This document shows, one piece after another, positions 28,783 to 55,716 of a DNA stretch of 64,000 nucleotides (its first letter is position 1; every line of letters begins with the position of its first letter). The DNA lies in assembly GCA_921293015.1 (NCBI GenBank), contig OV121085.1, positions 13,479,731 to 13,543,730 on the forward strand, in the 5' to 3' direction. The notes under the pieces are model-generated. The model was not told the origin of the DNA. It worked only from the letters and a program-made list of their open reading frames with translations, and did no database searches. This DNA comes from Phorcus lineatus (taxonomy: Eukaryota; Mollusca; Gastropoda; Trochida; Trochidae). The position numbers were made by a program, and so were the translations under genes.

Positions 28783-31700
28783 ATGGAAACTGTACTTCTC
28801 AGAACCTTCGTTTATCTTCTACTGGTACATGTAATTAGATCACATAATGTTGAAGGTGAGTAAACATTCCCAAGATAAGTAAATTATTTTAGACCTTAGT
28901 GCTGTTATTTTGTGTATGAAATTCAATGAATGGTTGAATTTTGATGATTTTCTTACATTCCTTCGAATATTACATTCCATATACATAGGTATAAAGTATT
29001 ACATGTTTCAAACTTGTATTGTTCATATATGTTATTGAGATTTTAGATTTTATCATAAGTATATAAAGTGAGAAAATATGACACCTTTCTTAATTTTTAT
29101 CTACAGTGAGCAAGGCGTGTTATGGATCCTCAGGTCTTGGGTTATCTGAATGTGTCAGTGTTGATGTTGAAAGTCTCACCTATGATAAACGAGCGGTATA
29201 CAGTATAACATTTTTCAAACTTGTCTTGTGTAATGTACGTTATTGAGACTTAAGATTCTATGATATAAAAAAAGTGAGAGAATATGACATCTATATTAAT
29301 TTTTATCTTTTGAACAGTGAGCAAGGCGTGTTATGGAACCCAGGGACCTCAAAATGAGTGTACTCGGCACGAATTGGATTGCAAGAACGGCAAATTAGCA
29401 ATACAGGATGCATTTTACTCATATAATTCTAGTTGTCTGTCGACTGGTTTAGGTGACTGTGGCAGTGTTGTTGTTAAAAATCTCACCTATGATAAACGAG
29501 CGGAGTTCAACGAGACTTTAACAGAGGAACTCTACAGAAGATGTTCTTTAAATGGAAGTTGTAAATTTGATGCGGGGAGAAAAGGAGCAGAATTCAACTT
29601 TTCAGTCTTAAAATATATTTGCATAAACGGTAAGGGCACGAATTATCACATCTTATAATTCAAACGGATCCAGACATCTTAATGTAGTAGTAGAGTATAT
29701 GTGCATAAAAGGTAAGCACATTATCACATTATCATAATATCTTAACGAGTTCAGAACGACATTATATACAATCATTACAATAGTGTTTGATGTTAAATTG
29801 TTCTAAAAGAGTGAATGTTACCACTTAAAAGTTTTGGTTGTTTTCTGCTATTAGATTTAGATGAAACTAAACTTTCATTGAGTTAAAAAGTATTTTAACA
29901 CTTTAATTAATATTGATCTGATATAATACATTTTGGTTAAATTGTTACAATGAATTCATGATACTTGATTCGGTGTGCAGATTTCAGATTATATGATACT
30001 TTTGTTGTAGTTCGTTTCAATCGATGACACATGGTAACATGTTGAATGTTTAAGTAACATATCAACATCACTTGAATGAAGAAACTACCAAAGATCCCTA
30101 AAGCGTTTTAAGCCATATTCAATAACATGTATGCATATTAAATAGGTGACAACTGATAAGACTTCTTTCAGAACCAAAGGTACTTTGTAATGATGAAACC
30201 TTTCACGCAAAGAACACATCACTGTTATGGATGGACACCAGCATCTCGAATGTAGACCAAACGTGCTCCTGTAACATATCCACCACTGAACATGAAGCTG
30301 TTGTGATTGCTTACGATATGAGACCACAAACTGCCTGTCGTAAGCTTTCGATCACTACTAATGGAGACACGAAGCCAAACTGTCAAAGATTAATATCTTA
30401 TCAGTTGTTGACAAATAGCACGATACCAATCGTTCTTAAACCAATCAATGGATTCAAGAAACTGTGGATTTCAATTATGGGTAAGTTATGTTGAGCGCCA
30501 CTGTTAATTATATGATAATAATACGACAGGATTTATACCATCATTAGGTGGTTAAGCCAAATAGAACTGCAGGTATTTTGCCATTGTAAGAAACAAGATT
30601 TAATCGGACAGTGATTTATTTCTAATCCTATATACACTCAAGCAATTTGTAAAAATCACAAGTCTATTCAAGAATGTTTCAAACTCAGTTACTATTTTGA
30701 CAGTTTTCATTTTTGTACCAAGTGATTTAGTTGGTTAGTTATAAAATCATTGTCTAAATCATATGTATTATTCGAGATAATTGGAATTTACAAGACTAAC
30801 GTAATGATTATTAGCAGCTGCGTTCAATATAAACAAAAGTCTATGAAAGGTAACAGCCCGATGTGATTCTTTCATTTCAGGCGCAATTAATGGATCTTGC
30901 ACCAAACAAAAGATTTCTCAGGACGGTGAGGGAATAATTTCCATCATACATCATATGGACGTAGATCTATTAACAAACTTGTGATTATAAACATATAAAC
31001 AAGACCATTGTAAAATGATTTTGTTGCATTCTCGATTCTGATTGGTTGATTTGAAAATTTTAAATGTTGAATGACAATGAATACCCGCAAATGAGCAAAT
31101 CTATTATTCAATAAGGACACATACAGATGTATGTGAATTGTACTAAAAAGCTCTGAGCAAATTTGCTTATTACCTGAACAATGCATAGCTTATGCCACAA
31201 ACCAAAGAAAGACTATGCCACAAACCAAACTAAGACTATTATGTATTTATTAACACCGGTTGCTAAATATAAGTTTCGTCTGATGGTTATTAAGCCATGA
31301 AATAGTAATTCAGCTTATCTTACTTTATCAACAGGTCAGTCATCGATAACGATACTGCCGACACCATTTGCCAATATTTCGGCTCCCAAAGAACAGGAAA
31401 ATAGTAAGATGTTGATATATACAGTTTCAATAATCAAATATAAAACTAATTAGATATGTTATCATTGTCTCGCACATGAATCTGAACATCGATAAAGCTT
31501 AAATTGGTAAAAATAAAGTATATCTGAGTGTGGCGATGACCATTGTCTTTTAACAGCCCTTTCATAGAAAATTCAAATTGTGTTCCTACACTTACCAATG
31601 TTAAAACTCATGTGGATAATATGTTCTTTTTTTTGGTTATAAAGTATAAATCGCGAAGCCACCAAAAGAATAGTATACTCTGGTGGATTTAAACGTGTCA

Positions 31701-32897
31701 TGTTACATCAATGTTATTAACTCATTGGTTGCTTTATTCATACACAGCTAGAGCCATTGCTGGGGCCGTGACTGTTGTTATTCTTGTCTGTATTATCGTG
31801 GCTGGTGTTCTCGTATGGTTTACGTTCATTAGGTAAGAATTTTATCATCCCCTTATTAAAATCTTTCCAATCCATTTTAAAGGGATTTGTCTTCTTATAG
31901 TATTTTGACATTTTAAGAGATTGACTCTATTCAATGTAGTTACAAATGTAAAACAAAAGAGGAGATGGCATCGGGATAATGTCCTTCTATCACTAGTTCC
32001 TGTATAAACAAATGAAATTGACTGGAAATTCAGCATTTAAGTGATTAGTCAAGTAAAAAGAGAAACCAGTTTCAAAACGTATAATGTAAAGTATAATGTG
32101 AATTCAGAAACAAGACGCAAGGTCAGAAATCGGAAACAGGAATTGACAAGTATGTCGTAGCAGGTTCAGCTTCTACTGCTGTCCAGCGTCGAGGTAACTA
32201 CGACTACGCAACAATAAACGACGGAGTCGATCCCATCGGACGCGCTCAAAATAACGTTCTCATCGGAAAAGCTCTAATGGAAGACGACTACAACCATATC
32301 AACCACCACCCTCCAAAAGGTGACACATCCTCTGGGTACGACACCACTGCTTCTGCCGCCGCGGCAGTGAAGAAGTTGATGGATGCATCATCTAATAGCA
32401 CCGAGAACGATGACTACAGCCATATCGACCATAACCCTCAACAAGGTGACACATCCTCTGGGTACGATACCACTGCTTCTGCCGCTGCGGCAGTGAAGAA
32501 GTTGAAAAATGCATCATCTTATAGCACTGACAACGATGACTACAGCAATATCGACCATAACCCTCAACAAGGTGACACATCCTCTGGGTACGACACCACT
32601 GCTTCTGCCGCTGCGGCAGTGAAGAAGTTGAAAAATGCATCATCTAACAGCACCGACAACGATGACTACAACCATCTCAGAGATGGGAAACCAAGTGGCG
32701 TCTCCAGTGACTATGATACCACAGTGTCTGCTTCAAAGGCTGTGGCACAGTTCGGGGAGATGAAGGACAGTGAAGATGACTGTGATCACTTTAAAAGATC
32801 TGAAGACAGAGTCATCGATTCGCCATATGATACTGCAAATCATCACAGTAGTGTATCAGCTGATACGACACCTAACCCTTATGACCTTGCAAAATAG
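28783..32897 (+). CDS. Receptor A: SUEL-lectin-like, DMRP domain, transmembrane, Tyr-rich tail
   Basis: Seven exons give 560 residues: 28783-28855, 29318-29629, 30172-30480, 30881-30925, 31335-31403, 31748-31832 and 32108-32897. The signal peptide is METVLLRTFVYLLLVHVI. Exon 2 is an 8-cysteine domain resembling SUEL/rhamnose-binding lectins (VSKACYGTQG; LDCKNGKLAIQDAFYSYNSS; FSVLKYICING). Exon 3 has five cysteines and the phrase AYDMRPQTAC, ending LKPINGFKKLWISIMG; it may be a CUB-like beta-sandwich, unproven. Two short stalk exons precede the membrane segment AIAGAVTVVILVCIIVAGVL. The 263-residue tail starts with basic residues and holds NYDYATI, DDYNHI, DDYSHI, DDYSNI, DDYNHL, four YDTT, PYDTA and PYDLA. 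Three tandem 42-residue units are present. A position that is Tyr in copies B and C is Cys here (DDCDHF). All extracellular exons are phase 1-1. It is probably a surface recognition receptor signalling through tyrosines; function is inferred. Confidence 0.87.
29107..29195 (+). pseudogene. Relic of a duplicated, internally deleted lectin exon
   Basis: After a good acceptor (TATCTACAG) the sequence reads SKACYGSSGLGLSEC, then jumps to VDVESLTYDKRA, so the middle of the SUEL-like exon is missing. The following 120 bp repeat the 3' end of intron 1. This shows a roughly 211-bp offset tandem duplication. If spliced in it would break the phase, so it is probably dead. A second small relic of the exon end (TATGTGCATAAAAGGTAAG) lies at about 29695-29715. 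Confidence 0.8.
32283..32660 (+). repeat. Three tandem 126-bp coding repeats in the receptor A tail
   Basis: Units at 32283-32408, 32409-32534 and 32535-32660 each encode 42 residues beginning DDY(N/S)(H/N)I, with SSGYDTTASAAAAVKKL in the middle and an Asn/Ser/Thr-rich end. Units 2 and 3 are almost identical, so the last duplication is recent. Copies B and C have one unit. Each unit adds one Tyr-x-x-Ile and one YDTT site. Confidence 0.95.
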
Positions 32898-34043
32898 AAC
32901 AAACTGTGACAAGAGAATATGCTAAAAATGATTGAAGTCGCTTTAATGTAACAAATTTTATCTGGAAGGTTCATTGCTTTAGATATTTGTCTCAGTCCCT
33001 GAATATTCAAATGAACTTGAACTAAAAGCTAAAGGTAAAGTATGAAAGGTGATTAAACTGAAATTGCAACTTATAATATTAAATTTTTATGAAAGATTGA
33101 TATACTTGTAGCAACTTTTAAACAAGACGCACTTAGTAAATAGATGCTCCTTCAAAGGTTTCACCACGATGCATGCACAAATCAAGTAACGAAGAAATGA
33201 AAGTTATATCACTTTGGCTTAGGTTTTGGGTAATGTTTTTTCAGCAAGTTCGAAAAAAACAGGCAAGCAGAAGTAAATGATGATGAAAATAGTTTGGTTT
33301 TTGTCTAACGACGTCATGGTTTAGAAATGGTCCGATGGTCAATATAGAATATTAATAATGATTCAAGGTCCAGTATTCAAAGTAAAAATGACTCCATATT
33401 TGGCAATATCTTCCACAATATATACTCAACGTTGAAACGTTATCCCACTCCGAAACGGTACTTATATTTTAGAATTTCGCTAACCATTGGATAATTCATT
33501 GGTATTTATGGAAAAAATGAGAACAGAATTGACAGTTATCATTTAGAGCTAAATGGCTTAGTACTGCCATAATATAAAGATTAAAGTAGCGAATGTGATC
33601 GAAAACGACGACGGTCAAGCGCCAATAAGTCAAACATTATCCTGGAACTTATCTTTAAGAAAAGTATATGAAACACAAATTGAAGAATACTTACAATGGA
33701 AATAACATGCGGTGCTCCTGCAATTTATATTTTTCCAGTGGATTTAACTGAATGTGTTCAGTTCCCGAAACGTAAAAACGATAAATAACGGATAATAATG
33801 TGTAAGTGTAATGTGTCAATATTATGTTTCAAATTACAAACAAATCCCACAACAGATTCCACTTTCCGTCAATTTAATGCGCTGGACAAGATCAAAGGCA
33901 CCGAATGACACCTTGAAATGAAACATCAGTATGATATGACATATAACTCAATGGTCTTTCATCACCTTGATAGAAAAGAAATAGATGTACCCGGCCTAGT
34001 CTCAACCATCATGTTTCTTACAGCCTTTTCTATTTTGTATATA

Positions 34044-34048
<5 letters not shown>

Positions 34049-34095
<47 letters not shown>
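34049..34095. repeat. (TA)n microsatellite
   Basis: An uninterrupted TA run of about 23 units. A second, shorter TA run lies at about 34277-34308. Confidence 0.95.
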
Positions 34096-34098
<3 letters not shown>

Positions 34099-34279
34099 CA
34101 CAAAAAAACTTCTTCATAGTTCAATATATAGTTATATATATTTAAAAAAGGAGAGTATGTTTCTCACGTGAAGGAAAGTTATATATATGATAGAGTAAAC
34201 ATCAGATGGTTCTGACTGGATCAATCTTCTTTAATCAATACGATGAATTCATTTCGACCAGTGTATCGGTATTTTCAAG

Positions 34280-34312
<33 letters not shown>

Positions 34313-35052
34313 TGTATATAATTGTATATATTCAAAGAAATAATATCTGGTTTCCATTCATGCATAATTTTTCATCATTTAAATGTTTGTTTGCTGACAA
34401 TTGTGTACCGATGATTTGTTCATGCCCTATATTGCCTTTTATCATGTTGTATTTAAGGTTCAATACATATGCTATTCATATTTACATTTTCTTATTGACG
34501 TGTTTGCCCTATTCGCAATGAACTTATGTAGGTTGGCATCCTTCCAATATTTAAGGAGATAGGGTCATTCTATTGTAGCGAAGAAACACAACTTGCCATG
34601 TTCTTTCGGGCTAAGCTAAGAACTTACGGGGTGGCTTTCATCGATGACCGCACTCTAAGAGGGCTGAGCCTATATAAATGAAACCTAGGTTTTAGTGAAT
34701 GAGATAGACTCCAGCATTATAAACAGTACTGTGTAGTTATTCTTTGTTCATTCATATCTATTCCCTGTACCCGATCAGAAGTCCCCTGTTATGTCACGCC
34801 AATGTTGATATCTCCTGATTAATAACTTAGAACAACAATTAGCCTTGTCAGGTTATTTCAAGGTCTGAGTAGCACATCGCTAAAGTGTTTGTCTTTTGCT
34901 TATTCACGGGTAGTTGACTGTAATTAGCTGTTGACTCTTTTTGATCTGTTTACTGCTCTAGTCACCGTTCATTTTTATCGTCTTGTTTTAGTCTGCAAAT
35001 AAACCAATTTATGCACTCAATACTTCTCTCTTACTTTTGTTGGCTTTTTAAT

Positions 35053-35165
35053 GGGGGCAGGATAAGGCAGTGGTTAGCGCGTTCGGCCTCGAATCAAGGG
35101 GTTCCGCTGTAAGTAAAATAATCATGAAAGCGGCGTTTAACCCGAAATCTCCTCACCTCACCTTG
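35053..35165 (+). mobile_element. Internally deleted tRNA-derived SINE
   Basis: The tRNA-like head (GGCAGTGGTTAGCGCGTTCG) is followed almost directly by the SINE tail (AAAGCGGCGTTTAACCC, then CTCCTCACCTCACCTT), so the body is deleted. It is in the opposite orientation to the intact copy at 27014. Confidence 0.8.
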
Positions 35166-38100
35166 CTTTATAATATTATTGTGTTATCTTTATGCCCTAT
35201 TAACGGGCCTAGTCTAATTTAGATTTCGTTACAGCGGGAAATTTATTATTGACTTCAAGGCACCTTGCGTCGGCCTGGTGCTTATTTTATATGGAGGAAA
35301 AACTCATAGTTAATCTATCTTTCTAGCCTCTCTAATGAAGTTTCCATGTGCAGATTTGTCTAATGTGTCATTGAAAAATTGTCGAAACACTGCGATGAAG
35401 GATTACAGAATACATTTCCTATGTATGATATAGTGACCATAGAAATATTGCACTAACTAAAATGTCTAAGGTACGTACTAACAATAAAACTATACATACA
35501 AAGGTTTTAACCCAAAAAGGAACACTGAAAAAAAGTCGTGTCCCTATTGAATCTAGTAGACAAATCCCAATGCCAAAAACCAAATTTAGAATATCTATTG
35601 CTTAGAATAAAGAGCTTTCTTAACCAAAGGCAAACAAATATGCAAGATATTAAAGTTTTCATAATGGTTGTGGGATTAACAGTTTTCAAAACATTAGTGA
35701 TCTTAGCAGCTGCAAGAAGGTCTTTCTATTCATTCGTTTAGTGAGTCTTGCATACAGGGTTCAATCGTTTTTCATTTCGTATGAAATAACATGAACCCTA
35801 AAGTGTTGATATGTGGTCTGTTTTACAATTTCTTTCATATAAAATTGTCCTGCTTTATATAGGATACATAAACACGTTACATTATGCATTGTTGGGACCA
35901 CATTTGACTGCGCGAATGACGAACAGGACATAATGGGTATTCATCACGCATGAATACAGTGAACAAGTTTACCTGCAAATTGCCTCCATGAAGGTTTTTT
36001 CCAAAGGAACCGCAAATATTATCGATAATGACTTGGATAAGAAAATAATAAGCTCGCAATTTACAGTGACCAAGATTCCCTGTTATTCGCCTCCACAAAC
36101 GTATTTTCCAAAAAGAACCATATTTACTCTTTATGACGAAATGGGTAAGAAAAAGAATAAATTCAGAAATTATCACAAAAATCTAATTGGGACACATAAT
36201 CCTAAATTCCTCTCATCTTGTTGATAATTCTTATAGTCTATATTGAGAGCAGCAGAGGAACAAGTTAGAATAACAGTAAGACATACGGACATATACTACT
36301 ACCCTCTGTATTTCAATAAGCGGAATACTAAACAGTGATCTGTATGTATTCCCTTTTACAGGCAAGAAACTGAAAATGCCTTTTGCAACATGAAGCTTGA
36401 GGTTTTCTGCGTTGAAATAGTGACCCTAGTAAGAAACTTATTCAACAGATAAAGACCAAATACAACGTTATAATAGTAAACTTTTCAACATCGAAATAAG
36501 TCCTTCGTCCCTGACTCATAAGGGACCTTCTTTCGTTCCTGAACCAGCTGGTTGGAAGTCAGAACATATTCGCCAGACACTTACAGCAAATGAATATTGA
36601 ATCTATAATTTCCTGGTACAGGACTGTACCTCATCTTCAGATTCCATGATTGGGATGTTGTATCCATGAATTCAAACAAACTGTAGTTACATATCACTAA
36701 GGTCTTATTGTTTGTAGCAATCATTCACAAAAGTGTCCTGTTGGTTGTTAAAGTAAGACTCTTTTGTCAAAAAGATTCCTGATATCTGACAACCAGAGAA
36801 TTTTGGAAACCTCGTTGAAACAAGGCTTGATACAACGTTGAAAGAACTAAGACATCAACGCTTTACTAAATGTCTACTTGTAAAACGCATGTAGCAAGTG
36901 TAGACGTGCTCGTGTCACAACAGGGCTTAGCGTAGAATTTTATGATTTGAGCTACATGATTTTGGAAAAAATTTAGTTAATGTCAAACTCGGAATAACCA
37001 TGGACAATCATTAAATTCCATATGTTTTGTTAAGTTTTTAAAAAGTTATTTTGTGTGATTGCAATTTATATATTTATCTCACGTTGAAAACACTGAAAGA
37101 AAAAAGAAAGAAAAACTGCACTAAGCTCACGGTGAGTTACCACGTATTTATCATGTTTATACAATGTCTTTGATTACTTTAAAGTCAAACACATGTTAAA
37201 CATACGTTGCCCTGTGCCCTCCCGGATAGCAAACATTTGGTGTTTTTAGTTTGACATTTCATCCGACGATTTGGTGAGTAAGCACATCTATAGGACAAGT
37301 GACAACAACTAAGGGGTGGAAGTGAGTTGGCTACACTAGCTACTAACTAGCACGTGTTTCTATATTTGTGTTAAACTTCAACTAAACACAATGTGTGATA
37401 CAAAAAAGAAAATTGAAATTGATGAAAATCGGATCTCGGTTAAATTAAACATTGATATGACTCAAACATTAGAGTTTATTTAAAGCTAAACATACGGTAG
37501 GATAAGTAATTGGCGAAAATGATAATAAAGTACGTAATAGTAATTAGATAAGGAACCGAGAGGGGTATCTGGGAATAAAACGAATGGTGACTATAAAAGA
37601 TTGGGCCTATGTATAGATCAGAACTTTTATACGTCATTGAATTTTCGAAAGAGAATTTGATGTGACCACTTTTCTTGAGTCGAAAACATTAATATTCAAC
37701 CAGTGAAAATAATCACATTTATAGTACAACTGATAATACAGTCTATACATCCATACTGTATATTGACATTTTGTCAAAATGTTCGCAATTCCAATTAGTC
37801 ATGATCAAATTCTGATTCTGAGTAAATCAGGCAAACTACAGATTGACTAAACATTTCAGTCCATCTACAGTTTGACTGATTTTAGACATTGATATACATA
37901 GTTAAAAGCGTTGATAAAATAACAACAGCACACAGCAGAGCTTGTGTAAGGATTACAGGTAGAGCGTCATCTTTGCTCTTTGTACATGTCCAGCATTGTG
38001 ACGTCATAATGACATGACGTCATAGACAATGTAGTCATTCTCCCTGAAGAGTAAATCGAAACATGTAGGAGAAAATGTTGTGTGCTGTTATATGTTATAT

Positions 38101-38621
38101 ATACACACACACACACACCCACACCCACCTACACCAGTAACTTCCAATTCTAGGGGTTTAATAGCATCGCATCATTTAAGGTGTCTAATGTATCATGCAT
38201 CTGATATAAAGAGCCATCTATTATACAAATGGACACTACTTACAACAGCTATTGAAAAAACCACAAAAACTTAATTAGTCATTGAAATAATATTTTTCTT
38301 TTGTTGATCTTAATTTGGCATAAAAGAACAATAGTCAAATCATTGCTTTACAATAATTTGTACTATCGAGGATCCCAACTACAGTAATTTTCTTATATAA
38401 GGGATTATGAAAACCTATTTTAAACATTATAGCTAGATATGATACCATCAAATAAATCAAAAAGACATAAATAAATCGCACAGTTAATTGACCACATGCA
38501 GTAGTTCATGCCTAATGTTATACCAACAATTAGAACAGTCTATGCAAGGCAGTACATGTATATATACAGTATATTGCAGTAGTAAACTGTTGATAGTTAA
38601 AGCCAGTCATTGCACGAGTAG

Positions 38622-38660: not shown

Positions 38661-38718
38661 GTGCTCGGTTGTATGTGCACCAACACTGTCATGAGAATGT
38701 TTCTCCTGGATAAATACA

Positions 38719-41700
38719 ATGGACACTGTACTTTTCAAAACTTTCGTTTATCTTCTACTGGTACGTGTATGTAGATCACAAACTGTTAAAGGTGAGTAAA
38801 CATTTCCAAGATAAGTTTTTTTCACTCCTTACTGCTGAATTTTGTGTTGTAGTTTGATGATTTTCACTTATTCATTCAAATATTACATTCCATATACGTA
38901 TAGAGTATAACATATTTCAAACTTGTCTTGTTTAATGTACGTTATTGAGACTTAAGATTCTATCATATAAAAAAAGTGAGAGAATATGACATCTATATTC
39001 TTTTTTGTCTTTTGAACAGTGAGCAAGGCGTGTTATGGAACCCAGGGACTTCAAAACATGTGTACTCGTCACGAATTATATTGCAAGATCGGCAAATTAG
39101 CAATACAGGATGCATTTTACTCATATAATTCTAGTTGTCTGCCGACTGGTTTAGGTGACTGTGGCAGTGTTGTTGTTGGAAATCTCACCTATGAGAAACG
39201 AGCGGAGTTCAACAAGACTTTAACAGAGGCACTCTACAAAAACTGTTCTTTGAAAGGAAATTGTACCATCAATGCTGGGAGAAAAGGAGAAGATTTCAAC
39301 TTTTCAGTCTTAAAATACATTTGCATAAACGGTATGCGCATAGGTTATCATATTTTCTATTTTCTAATTCAAACGGAACAAGACAAGATATTGTTACAAA
39401 AACTAGTTTACTTGGTAATAGCTTACATTGTATACTTCCTTTGTTCCCAGCAATACAGAAGCGATTTTGTTATAAATATCTTTATTTGCATAATCATTTC
39501 TTTATCGGAGTTCCTAAATGGTAAAGGCGCAGGTGTCATATTTTGAAAAAATAATACTTTCAGGAAAAATATGACCTAAAAATCTAATTCACTTATAGTT
39601 ACATTTTGCCTCAATTATTTATTATTGCAAATACGTTTACATAATTTTATTACAGGCTTTAAGTACAGGTTGATCTGTACACTGGCGCAAAGCGATAAGT
39701 ATTATTGTTACATCGTAATAAGAGTAAACTATCATTTTATGACATGCCTTATGGTATGTCACCTTTATTCGAGGTAAATAAATGTATACTATCACGTTTG
39801 TTTTTTGTAGTGTGGGTATTTTATGTGGACGATTAATATAGGCCGCCTTGTATAATCAACTAAGTTGTGCTCCTGCTTTGATTTTGTTTCTTTCAATACT
39901 GTCATTGAATAAAAATAAATAGACGTTTTATGCATCTCCAAAGTGAATAAAAATTAATCTGAAAGGATTTATTTTGATGAAAAAGGCGCTTTAATGCACT
40001 TATGCAAATAACTTAACAAAATTTGTCAAAAATAGCTTAAGTTGCCAATGTCAGTATAATCATAAATGCGGAAAACCTTTGATATTGTGAACCCGAGGAA
40101 TAGTTACTAGCTCATCTCGAATGACGTCTTACTGAGTAACGTCAAACATCATGAACAAGAACAGTACTTTCTGCATAAGTTTTCGAAGAGATTTAACCAA
40201 ACCCTACACCAATATTATACGTTTCATGGGCTTCATCTCTAATATTTTATTGAATATTTAATTTGATTTATTGTCTGACGTAGGCGCATTAATGTACGCT
40301 GGTCATAGGAATGGAATAGGAGCTGAAGGGTAGTTGTGCATCTGATGAAGATAGTTACTTTTATAATGACTTAAATAAGTGTTATTTTGCATCAACTAAG
40401 CATACAAGCACGACTCATGTAACAGAATTTTAAAAATAAAAATTGCCTCTATTTGATTTCCACAATGTAAGCATTCTGATTAAGAGCACAAAGTGCTAAA
40501 TCAAATCATGGCCTTTTTGAAACATTACCTTATATAATCTCTAACATAAACACTTTATCTTTTTAGAAATTTAAAATGATTTAAGCTGACGATCGGACAG
40601 GGCAAACAGATTTGATTTGATAATATCTAGCTGTAGCAAGTGATCCCTGCATATTGTATTGTTGATATGCTTTTGAAGTTCCTTCAAAATGTGCCTTGGA
40701 TTCATATATTTATTTACAACAAATGCATCACCTAAATCATATCATCATACCAGTGCATTTTTTTGATCGCGATGTGTTGAAAAGGTAGCCACTGTCTAAT
40801 CATAATATCATTATAGAATAAGTTGTAAAGGCTTTGATTAATGAGGTCTTATGGAGCCGTATGTCATAATATGGAGCTACTTATGTTCTCAAATCTATAC
40901 ATGCCTTTTGTCATATTACAATGAACGTTTATGTTTTCTTAGTTTCATTTTATTATGTTTACCTATGGTATTGAAAGTCGATCAGACTGTTCATATATAG
41001 TGCTTTGTGTAAAACTGAGTTTCCGGGAGGGTAAAACTAGTCTTTACAACTTGAAACAAGTCAAAATGTGTGTTTTTGATACCAGCTTTATTTTATAAAT
41101 GAGTGAGTGAGTTATTTTTAAGCGCCGCTTGGGTAATATTTTAGCCATTAGCAGCGTATTTTGTAAATGAGATGTAACCTCAACAACATCACCAAACTTT
41201 GTGTGTGAAATACCTATTAAAAACGTCTTTTGTTTGTAATCTTATTTACCTTTCTTCATTATATTTACAGTCCTGAAGGCATGTTCCAAATTACTATACC
41301 TACGAGTTTATTCATTACGTTGACTTGGCAACGCAAGTGCAAATGCATTTGTCTTGTAAACACTAGTGCATGCATCTCAGCTCTCATTACAGATTGTGAC
41401 GTAACTTTAGATATAAAACAATCAATGATTATCAGTTCCGTATGGTGACAATAAACAGGTTATAGTCGAGATGTGTGATCGAAAACCGGACAGTGGCACG
41501 CACCAATGTCTCAAACGTAATTCAGAAAACTTGATAACTGTAGATTCAGCGACATATATTGGTTGGCAGTATTTGATAGGTTATTTTACTAATATTCATG
41601 TACATGGAACGCAGAATTTCTACTTATTAAGATTTGTAAGGCCGTTTATCATTTACAGTCGAAAAGAGGAAAATCATTACGTTGACATTTAAGAGACAAA

Positions 41701-44700
41701 GATGTAACTTTAGGAAGGCGATTCGAACTAAACACAGGTCATATGGCATTTTGGCTCTTAAAATTTATGCAACATACTCTGTGTCCCTTTAATAATATTG
41801 ATTGTTTACCATTTGAAACTAATATAAGTTACCATGTGTCCGCGAGTTTGATATGGAGATCTCCATATCATACTCGCAGACACATGGTAACGTACTTATC
41901 TTGACGAGGACCCTTATTTTATGCTTTAAATTTGGCTTGAAAAATTGGATGTGTCAAAATGGCGGCGGATTTTATCAATGTTATTCTTTTATTTATGAAA
42001 TTACAAATGTGATTTGTATATCATGGTTTAGAGCAAAAGAAATACCTTTAAACGAACTTGAATACATATAACGAGTTTTGCGGTGCTTCTAAAGTTTTGA
42101 TTGATTGGTCACGTGACCTCGTGTATATGTTCCACCTTGTTAACGTACGATTTGAAGCGGCGCTAAAATCGCCGTAGATTTCTAATAGTCATGGCGGATC
42201 GTCGTAAAAGGAGCGATTGAGTTTTAAAATGTCGGACGCACAGAACATGCAGGCATCAGGATGGTATGAAAGTTTGATATGAATGAAGAGTCGGCGATGA
42301 CCTCGACTAAAATGTGTATAGATTTGTTTTTTAGTTCACCATTTTAATCTCCAGCTTGCTGATGAAAAACCTCGCTGCAATTGCAAGTCTTGTGACTTGT
42401 CAAGGTTTTTTTGCACGAACATTTCATTTTTACAAGAACTTACTTGTTCCGATCCAGAAATTATTTTAATTAGTTGGAAAATACACTGAGCTCGTAAAGT
42501 AAGGGTGCAACAAACCAGCGCAACGTATCCTCTGTTTACCTTGCAGTTGGACAAAGGAGATAACTCTTGGCAGTACATCGTCTCTTGTTACTACGGTTGC
42601 GCGTGACCAAGTTTAACATAGAAAATATATACCTACAGCACATGAGTAGCCACAGTAGCCGACATTGTTGTGCAAGTCGAGATAAAAATCATTATCCAAA
42701 CTGTCTGCAATATTAAACCAATTATATTATTATGAACAAAATATATTGTTAAGAACATTATTTTCGATTATATAAATGATTATAGAAAACAACTAATTAC
42801 TCTGAGCAATAACACATGGCTCGAGTGTGGAAGTTGATTTAAGTGTCACTGATTATGTTGTCGGGGTCTAACCTTGTAAATGCTGTTATCTTATCAAATA
42901 AAACTGAATTGTATCTTAAGTACAATGTTGTGATATAATTTGCCTTGAACTCTTTACATATTTTTGACATGTTAAAATATTTTCAAGGGATAAAATGAAA
43001 ATAAAAACTACCATTCTTATGTTAATTGACAATAACACGGTTTGATTAAATGATCTGATTAAATGATCGAACAAAAACAACGACATGCACCACTGAGTGA
43101 ACCGTAATTTTGGAAGTGATAAATAGTAGAACTAGTCAAAATGTAATTTGGCTTTGGATATTATTTAATAAAGATTTGATCGATTATGATTGAAAAAAAT
43201 GTCGCTTTTTGCAATTTTGGATGATCAAGAGATATGATATTTAGGCGAAGTCATACAATTATTCAGTGTGAAATATACTCTATTACTTTGATTAATATAA
43301 TTTATCGCCATATGTTGAAATGTTTCAGAAAGCAGGAATATTTGTGATGGAAATGCATTTGGCGATCACAACAAATACTTGTTGTGGAATAAGACCAGCC
43401 ACATGAATGAGGGTTATACATGTTCCTGTAGTATATCCTCAAAAAACACCGTGCCAACAGCTGTGTATGCATTAGACATGAGACCGAGATCAGCATGTAC
43501 CAAACTTGCATTCGCTAAAGATGGTCAAACTTACAAAAACTGCACTCAAAATATCCAATACCAGATGTTGGCCAACACTACAGGGACAGTTATTCTCAAA
43601 CCAGTCGATGCATTCGACATATTATGGATCAATATTCGAGGTAAGTCAGCATTTAAATTTCGATTTAGAATAAATAAAGCTGATGTCGTTGCTGACTGTG
43701 TTGACATAAATTTTATTTTCTAAAATGTAGTAGTTTATAATGACTGTAAGTACCTTAAACATTATATACTGTGGAAAACCCTTAAACAATGCAGAGTTCT
43801 CACTCTTAGCCTAACCACTTTACTGGCATTCCCTCTCTACAAATAGATCAGTTTCGTTCTTTATCATACCAATTGAATATCAAAAACTAATTCCCGCTTT
43901 CCCATTTTCATAAACACTTAAAGACATACAGATCGATAAGTAAACACTTATGACTTAAAGAGTAAAAATCTAATGTATCATTACTTTGTTCGTCTATTCC
44001 AGGTCATTTTGAAGTAAATTGTAGCACAACAATTACTCCAACAACTACAACTTTATCTACAACTGCAACTTCAACCTCAACTGCAACTTCAACCTCAACT
44101 GCAACTTCAAGTACAACTTCAACTACGGCACAGAATAGTTCGTAAAAGAGGAAAAAATATCAGGATCTATTTGATTACGGATTTTATAAAAATAACCTAA
44201 TGGAATAACTCAATAATATGCAAAGACGAATTGTTATTCATCATCTAATCATATTATGGAAGGCTATCATTTCACAAGTAACTTTTTAGCTTTTAAAAAA
44301 GGGTGTTTTTCCTCAGATTGCATTAATATAACTATTGACATACCAACTTTAAGTACCATTTTGAACAGAAGTAAGGTTCCAATCCATGTAAGACAGTTCA
44401 GTCCTCAGCACCTCCTTCTAATTATGCTTCAGAAAACCAGTATAATGTATGTTATGACATGAATTATTTCCGCTTTTCGCCAATTCAAAAATCATGCCAT
44501 GCTATTAGGAAATCAGCGTATTTATATCATCGAACCTCCTACCATAATACTATATCTATGACAGTTGGTTATTCATGCGTATGTCAATATGAAATTTATT
44601 CAGCCAATAAATCGAGTTATGAATGGCCCTTAAATTGTTTTTTAAAATACTCAATAGTCCTGTCTTACAGGTAATTCTATTATTGCCTAAAACATAAAAA

Positions 44701-45910
44701 AATTATTGGCTGGTCATTTATACGATGCAAGGCATTTGACTTGATAAATATCAGGGTAATGTAGGAGTTCCTCGGATGCATATACTCTGTAGCTGTCCGT
44801 TGTGTCACCTTGAAGGGATAGTATGGGAAAAATAGATGTCAAACCCTAATTCTTATTCAGTTGGTGCTATTGCTGGGGGTGCTGTTGGCGTTCTCGTTGT
44901 CTGCGCTGTTGTGGCTGCTGTTTTTCTATGGTTCAAGTTCGTGAGGTGAGGAAACTTTAAAGAAATGTGTTTAATACAAAAAAACTAAGATTAGATAAAT
45001 ATGTGACACTTCAGATTCAATTCCATTTATAGGGTGTCTTTAGAGCACACTATCATAGAAGTTTTGTTCGTAGAACATTAGAATCAGAAAACATATATAT
45101 TTATTTTAGACAAATTAGTTATTCATTATCTTACGTGTACGGAAAATAAACTTGATTGTTGTTCATTTGTTTATTAATGGTTGTGACCATCATCAAACAA
45201 ATGTCAATTTGTATTTTCTGCAACTTGTTTGATAAAGCTCATAGATGCAGATTTAAATTACTCTCTTCTGATAAATCTGATGGCATTTATAAATGTTTTG
45301 AAATATCAAATTTATTTTCAGAAACAAGAAGAAAGACAACAAACCAAAAAAAGGAAGTAGCAACCATGTTTTTGCTGGCTCAATGTCCCGTACTGCTATC
45401 AAGAAGGGGGATAGAAGAAATGTGAAGGCGGTCAGCAACTATGACTACGCTACAATACACGACGGTGCCAATCCTGTTGGACGCACCAAAAATCACTACG
45501 TCCTTGCTGGTAAACCCAGAACCGAGAATGAAAATGTCGTTATGGAAGACGACTACAACCGCATCAACTACAACCCTCCACAAAGTACCTCGTCCTCTGG
45601 CTACGACACCACTGCTTCTGCTGCTGCGGAAGTGAAGAAGTTGAAGAATGCATCAACTAATTGCACTGACGACGATGACTACAACCATCTCGGAGATGGG
45701 AAACCAAGTGTTGTCTCCAGTGACTATGATACCACAGTGTCTGCTTCCAAGGCTGTGGCACAGCTCGGGGAGATGAAGGAAAGTGAAGATGACTATGATC
45801 ACTTTAAAATATCTGAAGACAGAGTCATTGATTCGCCATATGATACTGCAAATCATCAAAGTATTGTGTCGGCTGATACGACACCTAACCCTTATGACCT
45901 TGCAAAATAG
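38719..45910 (+). CDS. Receptor B: paralogue with a Thr/Ser-rich stalk
   Basis: Six exons give 501 residues: 38719-38791, 39020-39331, 43329-43640, 44003-44137, 44861-44945 and 45322-45910. The signal peptide is MDTVLFKTFVYLLLVRVC. The SUEL-like exon keeps eight cysteines (KLAIQDAFYSYNSSC; LKYICING). The next exon keeps five cysteines and ALDMRPRSAC. The two short stalk exons of A and C are replaced by one 135-bp exon rich in Thr and Ser (ITPTTTTLST; ATSTSTATSTST), which looks like a mucin-type stalk and ends at a weak donor (AATA|GTTCGT). The membrane segment is AIAGGAVGVLVVCAVVAAVFL. The tail has NYDYATI, DDYNRI, DDYNHL, two YDTT, DDYDHF, PYDTA and PYDLA. Intron 2 is 4.0 kb against about 0.5 kb in A and C, so it has gained some 3.5 kb. 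All phases agree. Confidence 0.86.
41098..41160. repeat. SINE-tail-like fragment
   Basis: GAGTGAGTGAG followed by TTTTTAAGCGCCGCTTGGGT and an ATATTTTAGC-type stretch resembles the reverse of the SINE tail seen elsewhere in the window. Similar fragments lie at about 57883-57935, 63570-63598 and 63694-63740. No full element is present at any of these sites. Confidence 0.55.
41828..41891. repeat. 64-bp near-perfect palindrome
   Basis: The arms are 32 bp each, from GTTACCATGTGTC to GACACATGGTAAC, centred on GGAGATCTCC with no loop; only two base pairs mismatch. It lies in the expanded intron 2 of receptor B. Confidence 0.9.
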
Positions 45911-48116: not shown

Positions 48117-48560
48117 AATGCACTCCCTGAGAAAACCAACTATATACACTGATTATCTCAGAGAAAGAAAACATCTTTGCACAAATCATTAGCATTGTCA
48201 GCGAGTAAGACAAAATCATGTGTTATCTCGTACATTCTCTCATGTTTATCTTCCCATGCATGGCATGAATTGCGCCAGCTCAAATTATTTATTTCTCCAA
48301 CTCTCTTATGCTTGCCGTCCCGGCTGCTCCGACGTATCTCGATAGTGAAATGAGAAATCTAATAAGAATTGCAACTTTTAGCAAAAGAGGGGCATGCACT
48401 CAAAACAATAATTTTAGCAGGTTAGCTAACAAATGATCGGGACTGGCGCAACTTACAGTCATGCGATGGAAGTTGATATCCGTTGTTCAAAGTTCAAGCA
48501 CTAGTCAACAGGAAATATATTTATTCGCAACTGACAATCCAAGGTGATGAAAAACATTGG
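48117..48560 (-). pseudogene. Partial copy of the LU gene 5' end
   Basis: It matches about 24826-25325: the signal-peptide part of LU exon 1 plus about 400 bp of 5' flank (shared CACTCCCTGAGAA, GAGAAAGAAAACA, CTTGCCGTCC, GACTGGCGCAA). The copy stops within exon 1, just before the LU cysteines, so it encodes nothing. It marks a duplication breakpoint at about 48117, where receptor B's 3' flank ends. Confidence 0.82.
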
Positions 48561-49473
48561 AACATATTTCTTCAAAGTTCATATATTGCTCGACTTGATG
48601 ATGATAAGGCAAAATTTCAAGTTGAAAAAAGTACAGTTAGGTATTACGGGACAGCTACCGATGAAATAATATGCTTCAGCGTAAATCATGATTAGTTTTC
48701 ATGTAGATTAAATCTAGGGGACAGCAGCATTTTTTCTGTCAATTTTTATTTCATTTTTTTTCAATCGTTTGAGAACTGCTTCTTTTGATTTAGATGTATT
48801 GCCTTGCAATTAGTATTACTTATCATCTTGTATAACCCATATGAGAAGATGGACACAGATTATCATTTTTCCTGTAAGTCACACGGGAGTTACACATTTT
48901 CTTCGCATTTGATTGGATGTTGTGATCCAATGAAAAACAACGTGTTGACGGGACTATTTCATTCATCTCTCAAACGTTTCCCAACTGGTAATTTGTTTAC
49001 CCTAATTCTGAATTTTAACAATGTATATTCATTCAACGTAGTAGCCATTCGTCATTTCTCAGATGTGCACAAACGTGAAATAAGCCTGCCACATTGCAGA
49101 AAAGTATAGAAATTAGCCATTATTGAATTACGTCTTCATTGCGTTAAGCTAACAGCGCCAGGTTTCGTTCTGTAATTAGGTCATAGACACGAGCGGCTAT
49201 GACGTCATAGTACCATCAGTTACGTCTCAAGAAGTTCAGCCGTCTTGTAATATCACTATAGGGCGTCTCTGACCTCTTCAAACTAACTCAAAACTACTAA
49301 ATGTAATTATTTTGAATGACGGTTATGAAATAAGGAATCAACTTTCAACAATAACAACATTTACATTTTGTTTTGAAACCTTTTCACAAATGACAGTCTT
49401 TTCGTGCGTAGGTAAGTGTCAAGTAAAGTCACATTCATGCTCTGACATCATGTGATGTATCCTGTGTGTCTAG

Positions 49474-49746
49474 GGATCAACTCTGGTGTGAGCTTGCCAG
49501 CGTTGGGCCACTAGAGCTGAGCGCTGAATTACACAACAGATCTGGCCTTGACCTGGTGTGCAGTCTGCTGTCCTGTCGTCGCCCAGTGCCACTCTCTGAC
49601 GAAGATACTGAGAAGTACACAATGACTGTCATTGATGGACTCTACACTACTTGTAATGCTTAAGCAATTCTCGAGTTTATTTTCCTGATTTAATTGTACT
49701 CTTAACTTTTCTCGCATTTCCTTGTACTCTCCTTTGGAGGAATAAA
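49474..49746 (+). other. Possible orphan terminal exon (family not recognised)
   Basis: After an acceptor-like CTGTGTGTCTAG a frame runs DQLWCELASVGPLELSAE to DGLYTTCNA and a stop at about 49663. An AATAAA follows at 49741. The sequence is more GC-rich than its surroundings and looks like coding DNA with a short 3' untranslated region, but I do not recognise the family and see no upstream exons. It could be the end of a gene, a duplicated fragment or chance. Confidence 0.35.
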
Positions 49747-49803
49747 AGTGTATATATAACATATACGAGTTTTAATCTTTATAGGTAATATAAACAATAA
49801 CCA

Positions 49804-49930
49804 ACTCGTGACGGGAATGACAGATTATCTTTCCCTCGTTATATAAATTGTGTAATTCTCTCGCCAAGGCTCGAGAATTACGAAATTAATATAACTCGGG
49901 AAACATAATCTGTCAATCCCCGTCACTCGT
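49804..49930. mobile_element. 127-bp hairpin MITE
   Basis: The left half (CTCGTGACGGGAATGACAGA, then TTATCTTTCCC, then TGTAATTCTC) is matched by the reverse complement of the right half (GAGTGACGGGGATTGACAGA, TTATGTTTCCC, CGTAATTCTC). The spacer is only a few bases. No coding content. Confidence 0.82.
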
Positions 49931-50566
49931 AAGCTATAGTCTATTTCCGTCACTATGTTTGTCTAAAAAGTACTACTGCTCCTGTAACGTACCGCGTCAA
50001 GCTGAAGCTACTCGTTGGATTCGCTTAGTAATGAGTAAATTGCGTAAATCTACATTATTTTATCATGATAAATTACCAAATATCCATCATGCTTATATTC
50101 GATTCACACAAAATTACCTCATAATCATCACCTTATATTCCATTCAACTGAATTACCACATGATCATAACGCTCTTATTCGATTCATACAAAATTACCAC
50201 ATAATCATCACAGCATTATATCATGACCTATGCATGTCAGTATGATATAAACCATTTAAAAAACACAGAAACTGATAATGAAACGTAAAAACAACTTTTC
50301 CTTTCATCATATTGGGAATTGCTATAAAACGCCTCTGATAAACCACTGCTATAAAAGCGTTGATCAAACGATATTCCCAACATTACAGTGTGGATATAAA
50401 ACGAGCATTTGAAACAAAAATACATAAATAACTCCTTTTTTGTTTTAAGTTTTACATACCACAGCATATACCAGTATTCAGAGCAATATATGAAAGAACG
50501 TATTTATTACAGTGCAAGGCTGTTGATGATAAAGGAACAGTCATAATACGAGTTGTAATTTATACG

Positions 50567-50605
50567 ATCAAGCCGTGATGTCACCGTGACCTAGGAAGAT
50601 TTAAC
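50567..50605 (+). promoter_or_regulatory. Conserved proximal promoter block, receptor C
   Basis: GTGATGTCACCGTGACCTAG followed by GAAGATTTAAC matches the block before receptors A and B, but sits about 30 bp further from the start-equivalent position. Confidence 0.5.
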
Positions 50606-50688
50606 TTCCCGGTTACACAGACCCGTTTGCAGTTTACAGTTGAATGTACACGAAACTGTAATGTGTATTTTTCTCCTGGATTACTACA

Positions 50689-53600
50689 GTGGGGACTGTA
50701 CCTCTAAAAACATTCCTTTATATTCTATTGGTACATGAAATCAGATCACATGCCGTCAAAGGTGAGTAAAATGTTCCAATAATATTTTTTCAGTACTTCC
50801 TGCTGTTATTTTGTGTGTGACAATCAATGAATGGTTGTAGTGTAATGATTTTCTTGCATTCAATCAAATCTTACATTACATAAACGCAGAAGTTATACAT
50901 ATTTCAAACTTAGCCTGTTCATATGTATATAAATAAGATTTCAGATTCTAATATATCCAAGAGTAAGAAAATATGACACCTTTATTCACTTTTGTCTATT
51001 GAACAGTGAGCAAGGCGTGTTATGGATCCCGAGGCCTTGAGTGTACTCAGCACACATTGGATTGTAAGGGCGGCAAAATAGCAATACGGGATGCGTTCCA
51101 CTCTCATAATTCTAGTTGTCTGCCGGGTGGTTTAAGTGACTGTGGTAGTGTTAATGTTGGAAATCTCACCTATGATGAACGAGCTGAGTTCACCGAGACT
51201 TTAACAGAGGAACTCTACAGAAACTGTTCTTTAAATGAAATTTGTAAATTTGATGCTGGGAGAAATGGAACAGAGTTCAACTTTTCAGTCTTGAAATATA
51301 TTTGCATAAACGGTAAGTACCTAGGTTATTACATTTTCTAATTCAAACGGAACAAGACAAGATAACTAAAGTTGATTGAAATCAATAGTCCCGTAAGCGT
51401 GAATATTGCTACTAAATGATATCGGTTCCTTGCTTATTAAACAATTCTTTGTGGTTTAAGTGTTCATCGCTCATATTTCATACTTCCTTGCTTCCCATGA
51501 ATAGGGAAACGATCTCATTTTAAAAAACCTTTTTTTAGGCATTTACTTTAAGGAGAGATAGGACTTAAAAACCTACGTTACTAACGGTTTTTGGCGACAG
51601 AAGCTTGTCGTAGGAGATACACTCAGAAAAATGTGTTTCAGAAATACTCTTTACAGCTTATTGTTGTCCATCGACATAAGAATCTGTATAATAATATATA
51701 CGAATAAGGACGAGATAACGTTTTGGCCTTTTTTTAGTTTTTACTTGTTTTATATGCTTCCATTTGTTGAAAATAATGCCTCATACAGAAACATGTGTTT
51801 TTCAGAATGGTAGTAACGAAACTGTTAACGGGAATAACATAACTTTGTTGTGGAATAAAACCAACAGCCAACACACATGCTCCTGTAAGATGTCAACTAA
51901 TCATCATACAGCAACTGTGTCGCTTCTCGACATGAGGCCAAAATATAGATGTTATCAACTCAATATCACCGTAGATGGAGTAACAAGCCCAATGAATTGT
52001 TCAAGGAATATAATATACCCAATGCACATTAGGTCTACGATGGCTATCATTCTTCATCCAATGAATGCATTCGACATTATGTGGATACAAATTCTTGGCG
52101 AGTTATTGATGATAAAAGGCTGCTTTATTTTGTTCTAGTGATTTATATCGTAGCATTCAATGTATGTATGAAGATGACCGAATTAGTTAAAAATACATGT
52201 TAAAACTTATCAAAAAGGAGCAACGGAAATAAAACGAGACATATCATGAGTCATAATCAGTCAGGACCTTTTACTTCTTTTCACTACAATATTTGCTAAC
52301 AAAGCTCATCGAACCTTTAAACGAATATTTCCTTATAATGAAATTGTGAATTGAAAAGTGATATATTTCATAATGTTGGTTATTTCATATGTTTGTCTAA
52401 TTAACAGGATAAATTTACTCCGAATAAATGTCATATTAGATAAACAAATTAATAAGATATAAAAAAACTTTAAATGTTTATTTAAACAAGCACTTATGTT
52501 TGATTTGATTGTTTTTTTGTAACAAAAAATCAAGCGTTAACATATTAGTATTAATGTATTCTCACAGGTGCAGTTAATGGGTCTTGCTCTAAGAAAGGTA
52601 AGGTCATATTGATTATGATGAATTGCCTTTTTTTATGCAACTGCCAATATAATTTAATAAGTGCGTAAAACATGCGTTTCAAGTTTGCTTCTGCAATGCC
52701 TCAATTGTGCAAATAAAATGTAGTGTAATACAATTGGAACCAAAAAAACCTAAAAAGTGAAATCGTTTATAATCCGGGCAAGTTGTTGCCTTATCCTGAA
52801 CACATACATGTAGCGACATGTGAGTATCAGTTATTAGTGACATCGGTTTTCGCTGGTAATTTTGTTGTTGTATAATATATGTAGTAATTATATGTAGACG
52901 AAAGTCAGCTTTACTTTATATACACACAGGTCAGTCCTCGATTACGATACTGTCTGCACCACGTGATAATGATGACGCTCACGAAGGACCAGGAAACGGT
53001 TGGCTTCCCTCTTTCACTTGTTCGATCAATTTGATAACCATCAACATATATCTAAAGGCACTGGCGCACACCAATATTTCATAATTTACAACTTATGCAC
53101 AAATAAAGCAGGTATTCAGGTCAAGTCAATTCTACATGACCTGAAGTGCAATATGCAATATTTTAATGACTACGCATAATCTATAGAATGGGATATATCT
53201 AAATTTTTGCTAACAGTCGAAAAAGCCAAAAATGGTAGCCGCTATGGTTTATCCAAAGACAATGCTAAGCTATGTTTTGGAAATCGGTAAAGTTTGAGGG
53301 TTGACTTATGGAGAATACGTCGTCCTTAATTATCAGTTCAGAGATCAAGGTAAATTCAAAAGCTGCATACATTACCAGTTCAGTCGTTTTCAACAGTCCA
53401 TATTTAAACCTTTTTGTGCACAGATGACTGTAGAAAGGTTTTACATTTCTAAACAGACTGCGGCCGTCCTAATTTTTCATTATTGATTGCAGATCAATTG
53501 TAAAGAAAAATACTTATTTTGTTGCATCGATAGAAAGCTAACGTGAGTGCCTATGTCCCTATAGACCTTAAAACTGCCCATTTCAGAGCAAAGATGCGTG

Positions 53601-55716
53601 CAATAGTGCCTTTAAACTGACTTTATATATGCCACGATTATATACGAGATTGAAATTTTTTGTATCAATTGGGCTGAGTAGTCTATCAAATTTCGTAATG
53701 CAATATATTGCGATATATTAGATAAATATATTATCAGTTGTTAAAGAGCCAAACACATATTCTTTCACACCAAAAGAAATTTGAACTAAAATTAGTTGGT
53801 TCGATTGCCCTATGAAACATAATATTGACTTCTGTTGCATAATCTGTGCTGCAAAATATTGATTTTGTGATAATACTGCACTGCCCTATATATTTATGTT
53901 TATGTTCATGCAATTAAAACATGATGATAATGACGCCATAATGTGTTTTCAGTGAAATATTTTCAAGAATTCACTGCTCTTTGAATGTCCTACTCATGAG
54001 GGAGTCAGAGTTTGAAATTTTCTTTTTTATAATTCAAAATCTTGATTCATTTGATTCAAGAAAGATTAATCTAAAATGTCTCAAAGTGAAATGTAACTAT
54101 CGAAAGTCGTTTTGTCAGTATAAATCCGGTGTTCGTCAGCTGACAGACAAGGCATGGGTCACACTAGGAGAATATGGAAAGAATTTTTAGCACGTGCAAT
54201 TGGTTGTCAATCACATGTCGGTGCTTAGAAAGTCAGTGCACGAGCTTGGATGAATGAATTTCAGAAGTTTCTTAAGGCTGTGTCTCATGTTTAATGAGTG
54301 AGCACCGAAGGTTAATAAATTTTAGCATACATGAGAAAAAAACTTGTTGCATTTCAAAGAAATGTATGAGAGAAACATATCAAAAGTAATAGTGATTATA
54401 TTAATGTCTTGTTTCGTGAAGTTTTGCATTAATTGAGAATGTATATGAAGTAGTGGCTTCGTTCGAAAAAATGGCCCCTTCGGGGTTGTTGATTTTTGTT
54501 CACGAGTCCACTCCTCAGCATTCATTTTCCATGAATTAAATCCAGAAGAAAATAATATAAAATGAAGTAGGTGAAGTATGAAAAAAATGTATTATCCGTC
54601 AAAGGGCTCTGAGTGACAAAACAAAACAATGAATTTGATTATTTAAATGTTATATTCAACTGAGAATATCATATTGATGATAATGCTTAAAATTTATAAG
54701 GCTCGTAGCGACGTGAAGATGATTTGCAGATAATCATATCATTTAATATCCCTGTTACTAAATATTGGCTGCTTGATTCACGCACAGTGGGAGCCATTGC
54801 TGGGGGAGTGACCACTGTTATCATCATCTTTATTGTCGTTGCCGGTGTTATCTTTTGGCTAAAGTTCATAAGGTAAAGGTATTTCTTCCTCCCTGAACAC
54901 ACGTATCTTTCAGTGTTTGACCTTTGATTTGGACAATAATTTCATGTCATCATATGAACTAAATATAACAAGAAATACAAGAAGGAGCATCGAGTTGTAA
55001 CTAATAACACTTGTTTAACAGTACTTAGACTACAAAGATAACATGATTTAAAACAATTATCAAAATGTTTCCGGAATCAGAAACTGGGAATTATATTCAA
55101 AAGCTTGATATACTATATTCTTTTCAGAAACAAGAATGAAGACAAGAAACCAGAAAACGGAATTGACAATTGTGCTTTAACTGGTTCAGCTTCAATCACT
55201 GATGTCCAACATGTAAGTAGCAGAAAGACGACCAGCAACTATGACTACACAACAATAAATGACGGATTGAATCCTGTAGGACGCTCCCAAAATCACTACG
55301 TCCCTGCTAGTAAACCCAGCACCGACGATGGAACAACTGTCTTTATGGAAGAAGACTACAACCACATCAACCACAACCCTCCACAAGGTGCCTCGTCCCC
55401 TGGGTACGACACAACTGCTTCTGCCGCTGCGGCAGTGAAGAAGTTGAAAAATGCATCAGCTAATTATAGCATTGACGACGATGATTACAACCATCTCGGA
55501 GATGGGAAACCAAGTGTTGTCTCCAGTGACTATGATACCACAGTGTCTGCTTCCAAGGCTGTGGCACAGCTCGGGGAGATGAAGGACAGTGAAGATGACT
55601 ATGATCACTTTAAAAGATCTGAAGACAGAGTCATTGATTCGCCATATGATACTGCAAATCATCACAGTAGTGTTTCTGCTGATACGACACATAGTCCTTA
55701 TGACCTTGCAAAATAG
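50689..55716 (+). CDS. Receptor C: paralogue with lost start codon (possible pseudogene)
   Basis: Seven exon equivalents would give 486 residues: 50689-50761, 51007-51312, 51789-52097, 52568-52597, 52930-52998, 54788-54872 and 55128-55716. In the signal exon the ATG of A and B is GTG, with a stop upstream in frame and no replacement Met. The exon 3 donor is G|GCGAGT instead of G|GTAAGT, which could work only as a rare GC-AG intron; otherwise the frame ends at 52138. Everything else is open and in phase: the 8-cysteine SUEL-like exon (LDCKGGKIAIRDAF; LKYICING), the 5-cysteine exon (LLDMRPKYRC), stalk exons GAVNGSCSKK and GQSSITILSAP, membrane segment AIAGGVTTVIIIFIVVAGVI, and a tail with NYDYTTI, DDYNHL, YDTT, DDYDHF, PYDTA and PYDLA. 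An alternative first exon or recent inactivation are both possible. Confidence 0.8.

Follow-up and report, generated by a model that had tools for sequence, protein, structure and literature searches.

To our knowledge, the recognition of microbes and non-self by surface receptors is poorly mapped in gastropods. Among the closest described systems, SUEL lectins carry the sugar-site motifs YGR and DPC (PMC10817417). The Biomphalaria polymorphic transmembrane clusters PTC1 (GRC) and PTC2 encode single-pass surface proteins, and the membrane segment is the only known domain of PTC2 proteins (PMC7494358). We analysed a stretch of 64,000 nucleotides from Phorcus lineatus (the window), which, like the Biomphalaria loci, holds a cluster of predicted single-pass membrane genes: three neighbouring head-to-tail genes on the + strand at 28783-55716, so that three copies lie within 27 kb. 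On balance, we read these genes as tandem type I single-pass surface receptors of one gastropod lineage that would bind ligands, be phosphorylated in their tails and recruit SH2 proteins. Gene structure, homology, the fold modelled for domain one of an abalone relative, the conserved tail tyrosines and the module-wise variation of abalone isoforms carry this reading. The exons of the three copies are as follows.

28783..28855, + strand, copy 1 exon 1, signal peptide by eye (METVLLRTFVYLLLVHVIRSHNVE), GT donor
29106..29196, + strand, truncated duplicate of the SUEL-like exon with its acceptor retained, just upstream of the real exon of copy 1
29318..29629, + strand, copy 1 exon 2, SUEL-like domain with eight cysteines, phase 1-1
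30172..30480, + strand, copy 1 exon 3, second domain ('DMRP'), phase 1-1
30881..30925, + strand, copy 1 stalk exon with a sixth cysteine (GAINGSCTKQKISQD; GAINGSC), phase 1-1, similar to the stalk of copy 3 and to FNVKC of abalones
31748..31832, + strand, copy 1 membrane exon
32108..32897, + strand, copy 1 tail exon with stop, 14 tyrosines
38719..38791, + strand, copy 2 exon 1, signal peptide
39020..39331, + strand, copy 2 exon 2, SUEL-like domain
43329..43640, + strand, copy 2 exon 3, second domain
44003..44137, + strand, copy 2 threonine-rich stalk exon (GHFEVNCSTTITPTTTT...), acceptor at 44003
44861..44945, + strand, copy 2 membrane exon
45322..45910, + strand, copy 2 tail exon with stop, 11 tyrosines
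50689..50761, + strand, copy 3 equivalent of exon 1, with GTG replacing ATG
51007..51312, + strand, copy 3 exon 2, SUEL-like domain
51789..52097, + strand, copy 3 exon 3, second domain, whose splicing would require GC as the donor at 52098
52568..52597, + strand, copy 3 stalk exon with a sixth cysteine (GAVNGSCSKK)
54788..54872, + strand, copy 3 membrane exon
55128..55716, + strand, copy 3 tail exon with stop, 11 tyrosines

The exon lengths given in an earlier note on this DNA were reproduced exactly (copies 1, 2 and 3: SUEL-like 312, 312 and 306; second-domain 309, 312 and 309; membrane 85, 85 and 85), and the signal and tail exons measured 73, 73 and 73 and 790, 589 and 589, respectively. 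The common exon plan proposed there was also borne out, as the five joined exons formed one open frame per copy. The frames ran to the stop in all three copies, started with ATG in copies 1 and 2 and with GTG in copy 3, and were still open when the stalk exons were added. The SUEL-like and second-domain exons were in phase 1 at both borders, and the signal peptide and membrane segment were assigned by eye. The donor of the copy 2 stalk was uncertain, with 44110 or 44137 as the last base and poor scores for both. No in-frame ATG was found in copy 3 from the GTG at 50689 back to the upstream stop; this copy may be decayed or served by another first exon. DNA comparison of copies 1 and 2 gave 78% identity at 28235-29134 and 89% at 29196-29676, introns included. 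The final ~360 bases of the tail exons were 90-91% identical (E of 5e-140 or better), with weaker similarity in the earlier tail. The similarity of the copies is far above chance and is due to duplication. The predicted proteins support a coherent family with the order signal, SUEL-like domain, second domain, stalk, membrane segment and tail.

Elsewhere in the window, exons for C-type lectin domains (PF00059, above cut-off) were found at 3442-3705 (+), 7110-7346 (-) and 17712-17969 (+), and the stretch at 12284-12526 (-) resembled a further one without reaching significance. A long open reading frame at 8241-11459 (+) encoded the endonuclease and reverse transcriptase domains of a LINE-type element, and the HTH domain of the Mos1 transposase was matched weakly at 1351-1566 (+) (E of 0.0094, below cut-off), perhaps by a mariner relic. 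Several open stretches rich in cysteine at 21433-25030 (-), one of them weakly ShK-like (E of 0.058), seem to form a small family of cysteine-rich secreted proteins.

A protein search with copy 2 recovered 23 proteins, all from Haliotis, and a profile search recovered 38, of which 36 were from Haliotis (E of 4.5e-41 or better). P0039 (Baffinella, E of 0.18) and P0040 (SVEP1-like, E of 0.24) were regarded as noise and left out of the counts. In total, there were 37 distinct abalone relatives, from H. rufescens (9 locus names), H. rubra (6), H. asinina and H. cracherodii, all annotated as 'uncharacterized'; remote relatives may be missed because the protein searches need shared five-residue words. 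The earlier note had suggested a search of other mollusc genomes for the exon plan; the protein searches yielded abalone proteins with the same domain order. The note's statement that it knew of no described family with this combination agreed with the open-licence literature, whose listings and abstracts yielded no published description of the receptor family, but full-length relatives do exist in abalones, although uncharacterized. Six abalone locus names were likewise without mention in the open-licence papers. Each SUEL-like exon was matched by 35 of the 37 abalone proteins at E of 1e-3 or better (best ~1e-21 to 5e-21), and each tail exon by 29 of the 37 at the same threshold. The abalone proteins (H. 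rufescens LOC124139987, H. rubra LOC124265724 and others) shared with the window proteins the domain order, the eight SUEL-like cysteines, the D-x-R second domain, a similar start of the membrane segment and the tyrosine array. They were ~30% identical to the window proteins over the full length, and some differed by a doubled SUEL-like domain, by the lack of a second domain or by a short tail absent from the window.

The SUEL-like character of domain one, claimed in the earlier note, stood as regards the cysteines and the fold but did not reach the Pfam cut-off. Each SUEL-like exon of the window encoded eight cysteines, and eight cysteine columns were invariant across 22 sequences. SUEL_Lectin (PF02140) matched none of the three window exons at E up to 1. 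It matched 7 of 22 family members (best E of 0.042), more than any other Pfam family did, and the score of P0017 was 12.6 bits against a cut-off of 31.4. Single-sequence Pfam scans of nine window exons and of the joined copies 1 and 2 gave nothing above cut-off, and neither did PDB sequence searches. When the modelled domain one of an abalone relative was compared with known folds, the top nine rows were all SUEL or latrophilin lectins, which supports a predicted SUEL fold (alpha/beta) for this domain. Its best profile match, the C-terminal domain of a rice beta-galactosidase (E of 0.47), agrees with a SUEL-type fold and is no evidence on its own. The YGR and DPC motifs were absent from all three SUEL-like exons of the window.

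The second domain had been described as a five-cysteine domain, and five cysteines were indeed kept in each second-domain exon, but a sixth lay in the next stalk exon. The second domain extends past its exon: abalone relatives continue as ...WLLINASDPFNVKCE..., and the candidate stalk exons of the window have a cysteine at the equivalent place; for the copy 2 stalk, the tblastn match was weak (E of 0.16). Pfam CUB, which the earlier note had named as a profile to search with, matched none of the 14 second-domain sequences at an E of 10 or lower. Thirteen of these 14 matched no Pfam family, and the remaining one had a chance match to a DUF. The fold rows were a mixture of collagen-binding, GOLD, toxin and CUB sandwiches, and we read the domain as a probable, strongly diverged beta-sandwich and name no relative for it. 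In the members scanned, both extracellular domains lie below the cut-off of every Pfam model. The second-domain exons matched none of the 37 abalone proteins at E of 1 or better, and the probable link between the window and abalone second domains is one of profile comparison only (hhalign probability 85%, E of 6e-6, 49 columns, profiles of only 3 and 8 sequences). A search with the second domain of abalone P0009 gave seven matches including the query, all from abalones, among 254 candidates.

The tails were said to be full of Tyr-x-x-hydrophobic sites. Such sites were present at 5 of 14, 4 of 11 and 4 of 11 tyrosines in copies 1, 2 and 3, but the enrichment was weak, because shuffled tails reached the same number in 80, 339 and 269 of 5000 cases, respectively. 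Tyrosine was the most conserved tail residue type among types with 14 or more cells. Compared with seven of the eight abalone rows of alignment A1, which are paralogues and isoforms and therefore not independent, tyrosines were conserved at 56/77 in copy 2, 56/77 in copy 3 and 49/98 in copy 1, and other tail residues at 358/1288, 344/1288 (27-28%) and 330/1736 (19%), respectively. Columns consisting entirely of tyrosine in the seven abalone rows numbered eight for copies 2 and 3 and seven for copy 1. The tail unit reads D-D-Y-N-H-I/L, ~10-20 residues and Y-D-T-T-A/V-S, with two tyrosines per unit, and a single pattern counted 4, 2 and 2 units in copies 1, 2 and 3 and 6 in P0002. In copy 1, an in-frame tandem repeat of 126 bases (3.1 copies, 32286-32675) multiplies the two-tyrosine unit. 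An acidic residue preceded 5-6 tyrosines in each window tail.

The phosphotyrosine-signalling architecture proposed in the earlier note is consistent with the strong conservation of the tail tyrosines, but the classical motifs ITAM (Yxx[LI]-x6-12-Yxx[LI]) and ITIM ([ILVS]xYxx[ILV]) were absent from all three window tails, as were ITSM, NPxY and YxxM patterns. Some abalone tails had an ITIM-type site (SDYDHI or SNYDYV). ITAM spacing (x6-8) occurred in 3 of 37 abalone proteins, all within the eight short-tailed models: the short tails of P0027, P0028 and P0033 read YSGL-x8-YAII (YxxL-x8-YxxI), a match found in 13-18 of 5000 shuffles of these tails, and P0030, P0031 and P0037 had imperfect forms. 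P0028 also carried a T-x-Y-x-x-I site. When the window was searched for the abalone short tail (tblastn and pattern, seven of the eight short-tailed models), only the known membrane and tail exons, low-complexity stretches and chance stretches were found. P0036, with a membrane segment and tail and no SUEL-like domain, gave one marginal match to Pfam SCIMP, which we take to be a phosphotyrosine membrane adaptor (27.2 bits, cut-off 27, E of 6e-6).

Phase 1-1 is common to the SUEL-like, second-domain and stalk exons, so that domains of this family can be skipped, doubled or exchanged. Gene models of H. rubra LOC124265724 varied by such modules. P0003 and P0012 were identical at residues 1-131 (signal and first SUEL-like domain) and then had one 22-residue block in common only, and P0003 was identical to P0027 and P0028 at residues 1-375, followed by a long or a short tail. 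P0003 also had the membrane segment and tail in common with P0007 and P0008, with different SUEL-like domains and second domains that matched in pieces only. LOC124273454 was split in the same way (P0014 and P0015 vs P0032, residues 1-129). In H. asinina, the stretch containing the second domain was the sole difference between P0006 and P0018. The isoform breaks at residues 122-131 fell at the end of the SUEL-like domain, an exon border in the window; these isoforms are automatic gene models, and a model fusing neighbouring genes would mimic exchange.

The window copies themselves showed a mosaic pattern. Synonymous divergence (dS, NG86) was 0.13-0.28 in the SUEL-like exon, 0.20-0.43 in the tail, 0.91-2.17 in the second domain and 0.56-1.58 in the membrane exon, with values above 1 saturated and rough. 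The introns flanking the second domain mostly gave no alignment between copies. At fourfold sites, similarity was higher in the SUEL-like and tail exons than in the second domain for most copy pairs (p = 0.0003, 0.11 and 0.012 for the SUEL-like exon and 0.023, 0.007 and 0.0015 for the tail, each over three pairs that are not independent); in the membrane exon, 7/8, 7/10 and 4/10 sites were identical, too few to judge. The gene ends seem to descend from a more recent common ancestor than the middle does, either through conversion that homogenised the ends or through exchange of a middle cassette. In all exon pairs computed, dN/dS was below 1, the one exception being the 24-codon signal exon in the comparison of copies 1 and 2. 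YN00 values of 0.95-0.98 for the SUEL-like exon (pairs 1-2 and 1-3) and for the tail (pair 2-3) reflect weak constraint, with no sign of positive selection. Plain positive selection was rejected as the cause of second-domain divergence; since dN/dS of this domain does not exceed 1 and its synonymous sites are likewise old, we prefer an exchange of the middle or a homogenisation of the ends. Mosaic histories of this kind are seen in recognition receptor clusters.

A bolder and rather doubtful proposal is that these are a molluscan counterpart of paired receptors, built by cassette exchange, in which the phase 1-1 SUEL-like and second-domain exons would be joined across neighbouring copies to either a tail of repeated tyrosine-docking units or a short ITAM-spaced tail. 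A single ectodomain could then feed two outputs, and the same tail could serve several ectodomains. The abalone gene models show both, namely alternative tails per ectodomain and one tail with several ectodomains, and the mosaic history inferred for the window is as expected of such exchange.

Judged from the predicted proteins, the likely role of the family is recognition coupled to signalling. The ectodomain, a SUEL-fold domain without the usual sugar-binding motifs plus a diverged beta-sandwich, would bind a protein or glycan ligand; once clustered, the receptors would have their tails phosphorylated by a cytoplasmic tyrosine kinase; and SH2 adaptors would be recruited by the resulting series of phosphotyrosines, with the number of units setting the strength. 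Ligand binding, phosphorylation and SH2 recruitment are what we infer, and the most likely purpose would be recognition of microbes or non-self. Tyr-x-x-hydrophobic is also the AP-2 sorting pattern, which YNHI, YNHL, YDHF and YATI fit, and the genes could encode endocytic or scavenger receptors that take up ligands without signalling. We consider this unlikely: the equally conserved YDTT/YDTA tyrosines have no hydrophobic residue at +3, acidic residues precede many of the tyrosines, and the tails repeat their units although a single sorting signal would suffice.

The same tail signalling might instead serve the animal's own cells in adhesion or in self- or gamete recognition, in keeping with the missing sugar motifs and with the resemblance of the domain-one model to latrophilin lectin domains, which are protein binders (latrophilin-teneurin complexes were among the fold rows). 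Tandem, lineage-restricted, cassette-exchanging families are more typical of non-self recognition, and solely on this tandem, lineage-restricted, mosaic pattern is immune recognition favoured and an adhesive function judged improbable. Finally, the missing ATG and the GC donor of copy 3, together with the truncated SUEL-like exon at 29106-29196, might indicate a partly decayed array in which there are pseudogenes among the copies and the exon plan survives as a relic. This is very improbable given that none of the three frames is interrupted before its end, with eight cysteines retained per SUEL-like exon and five per second-domain exon. For the preferred reading as signalling recognition receptors, the readable cassette plan of the ectodomain, the repeated tyrosine tail and the alternative ITAM-spaced tail of abalones provide a testable entry point.

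Compared with known systems, the window proteins share eight cysteines and the predicted fold with SUEL/rhamnose-binding lectins and the latrophilin lectin domain. In contrast to these soluble lectins and seven-helix receptors, they would be single-pass proteins with a tyrosine tail, and their SUEL-like domains, which lack both YGR and DPC, lie below the Pfam cut-off. The words tyrosine and lectin are absent from the main text of the Biomphalaria PTC paper (PMC7494358), and no Biomphalaria protein was among the matches of our family searches, which were limited to shared five-residue words. The PTC clusters are marked by extreme allelic divergence and an effect on resistance; the window represents one haplotype. 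We regard PTC/GRC as the nearest parallel in function and do not claim membership. p130Cas is a cytosolic protein with many repeated Y-D-x-x sites of the YxxP type in a row; the window tails resemble such docking regions in their repeated Y-D-x-x sites, but here the sites are YDTT/YNHI in a putative membrane receptor.
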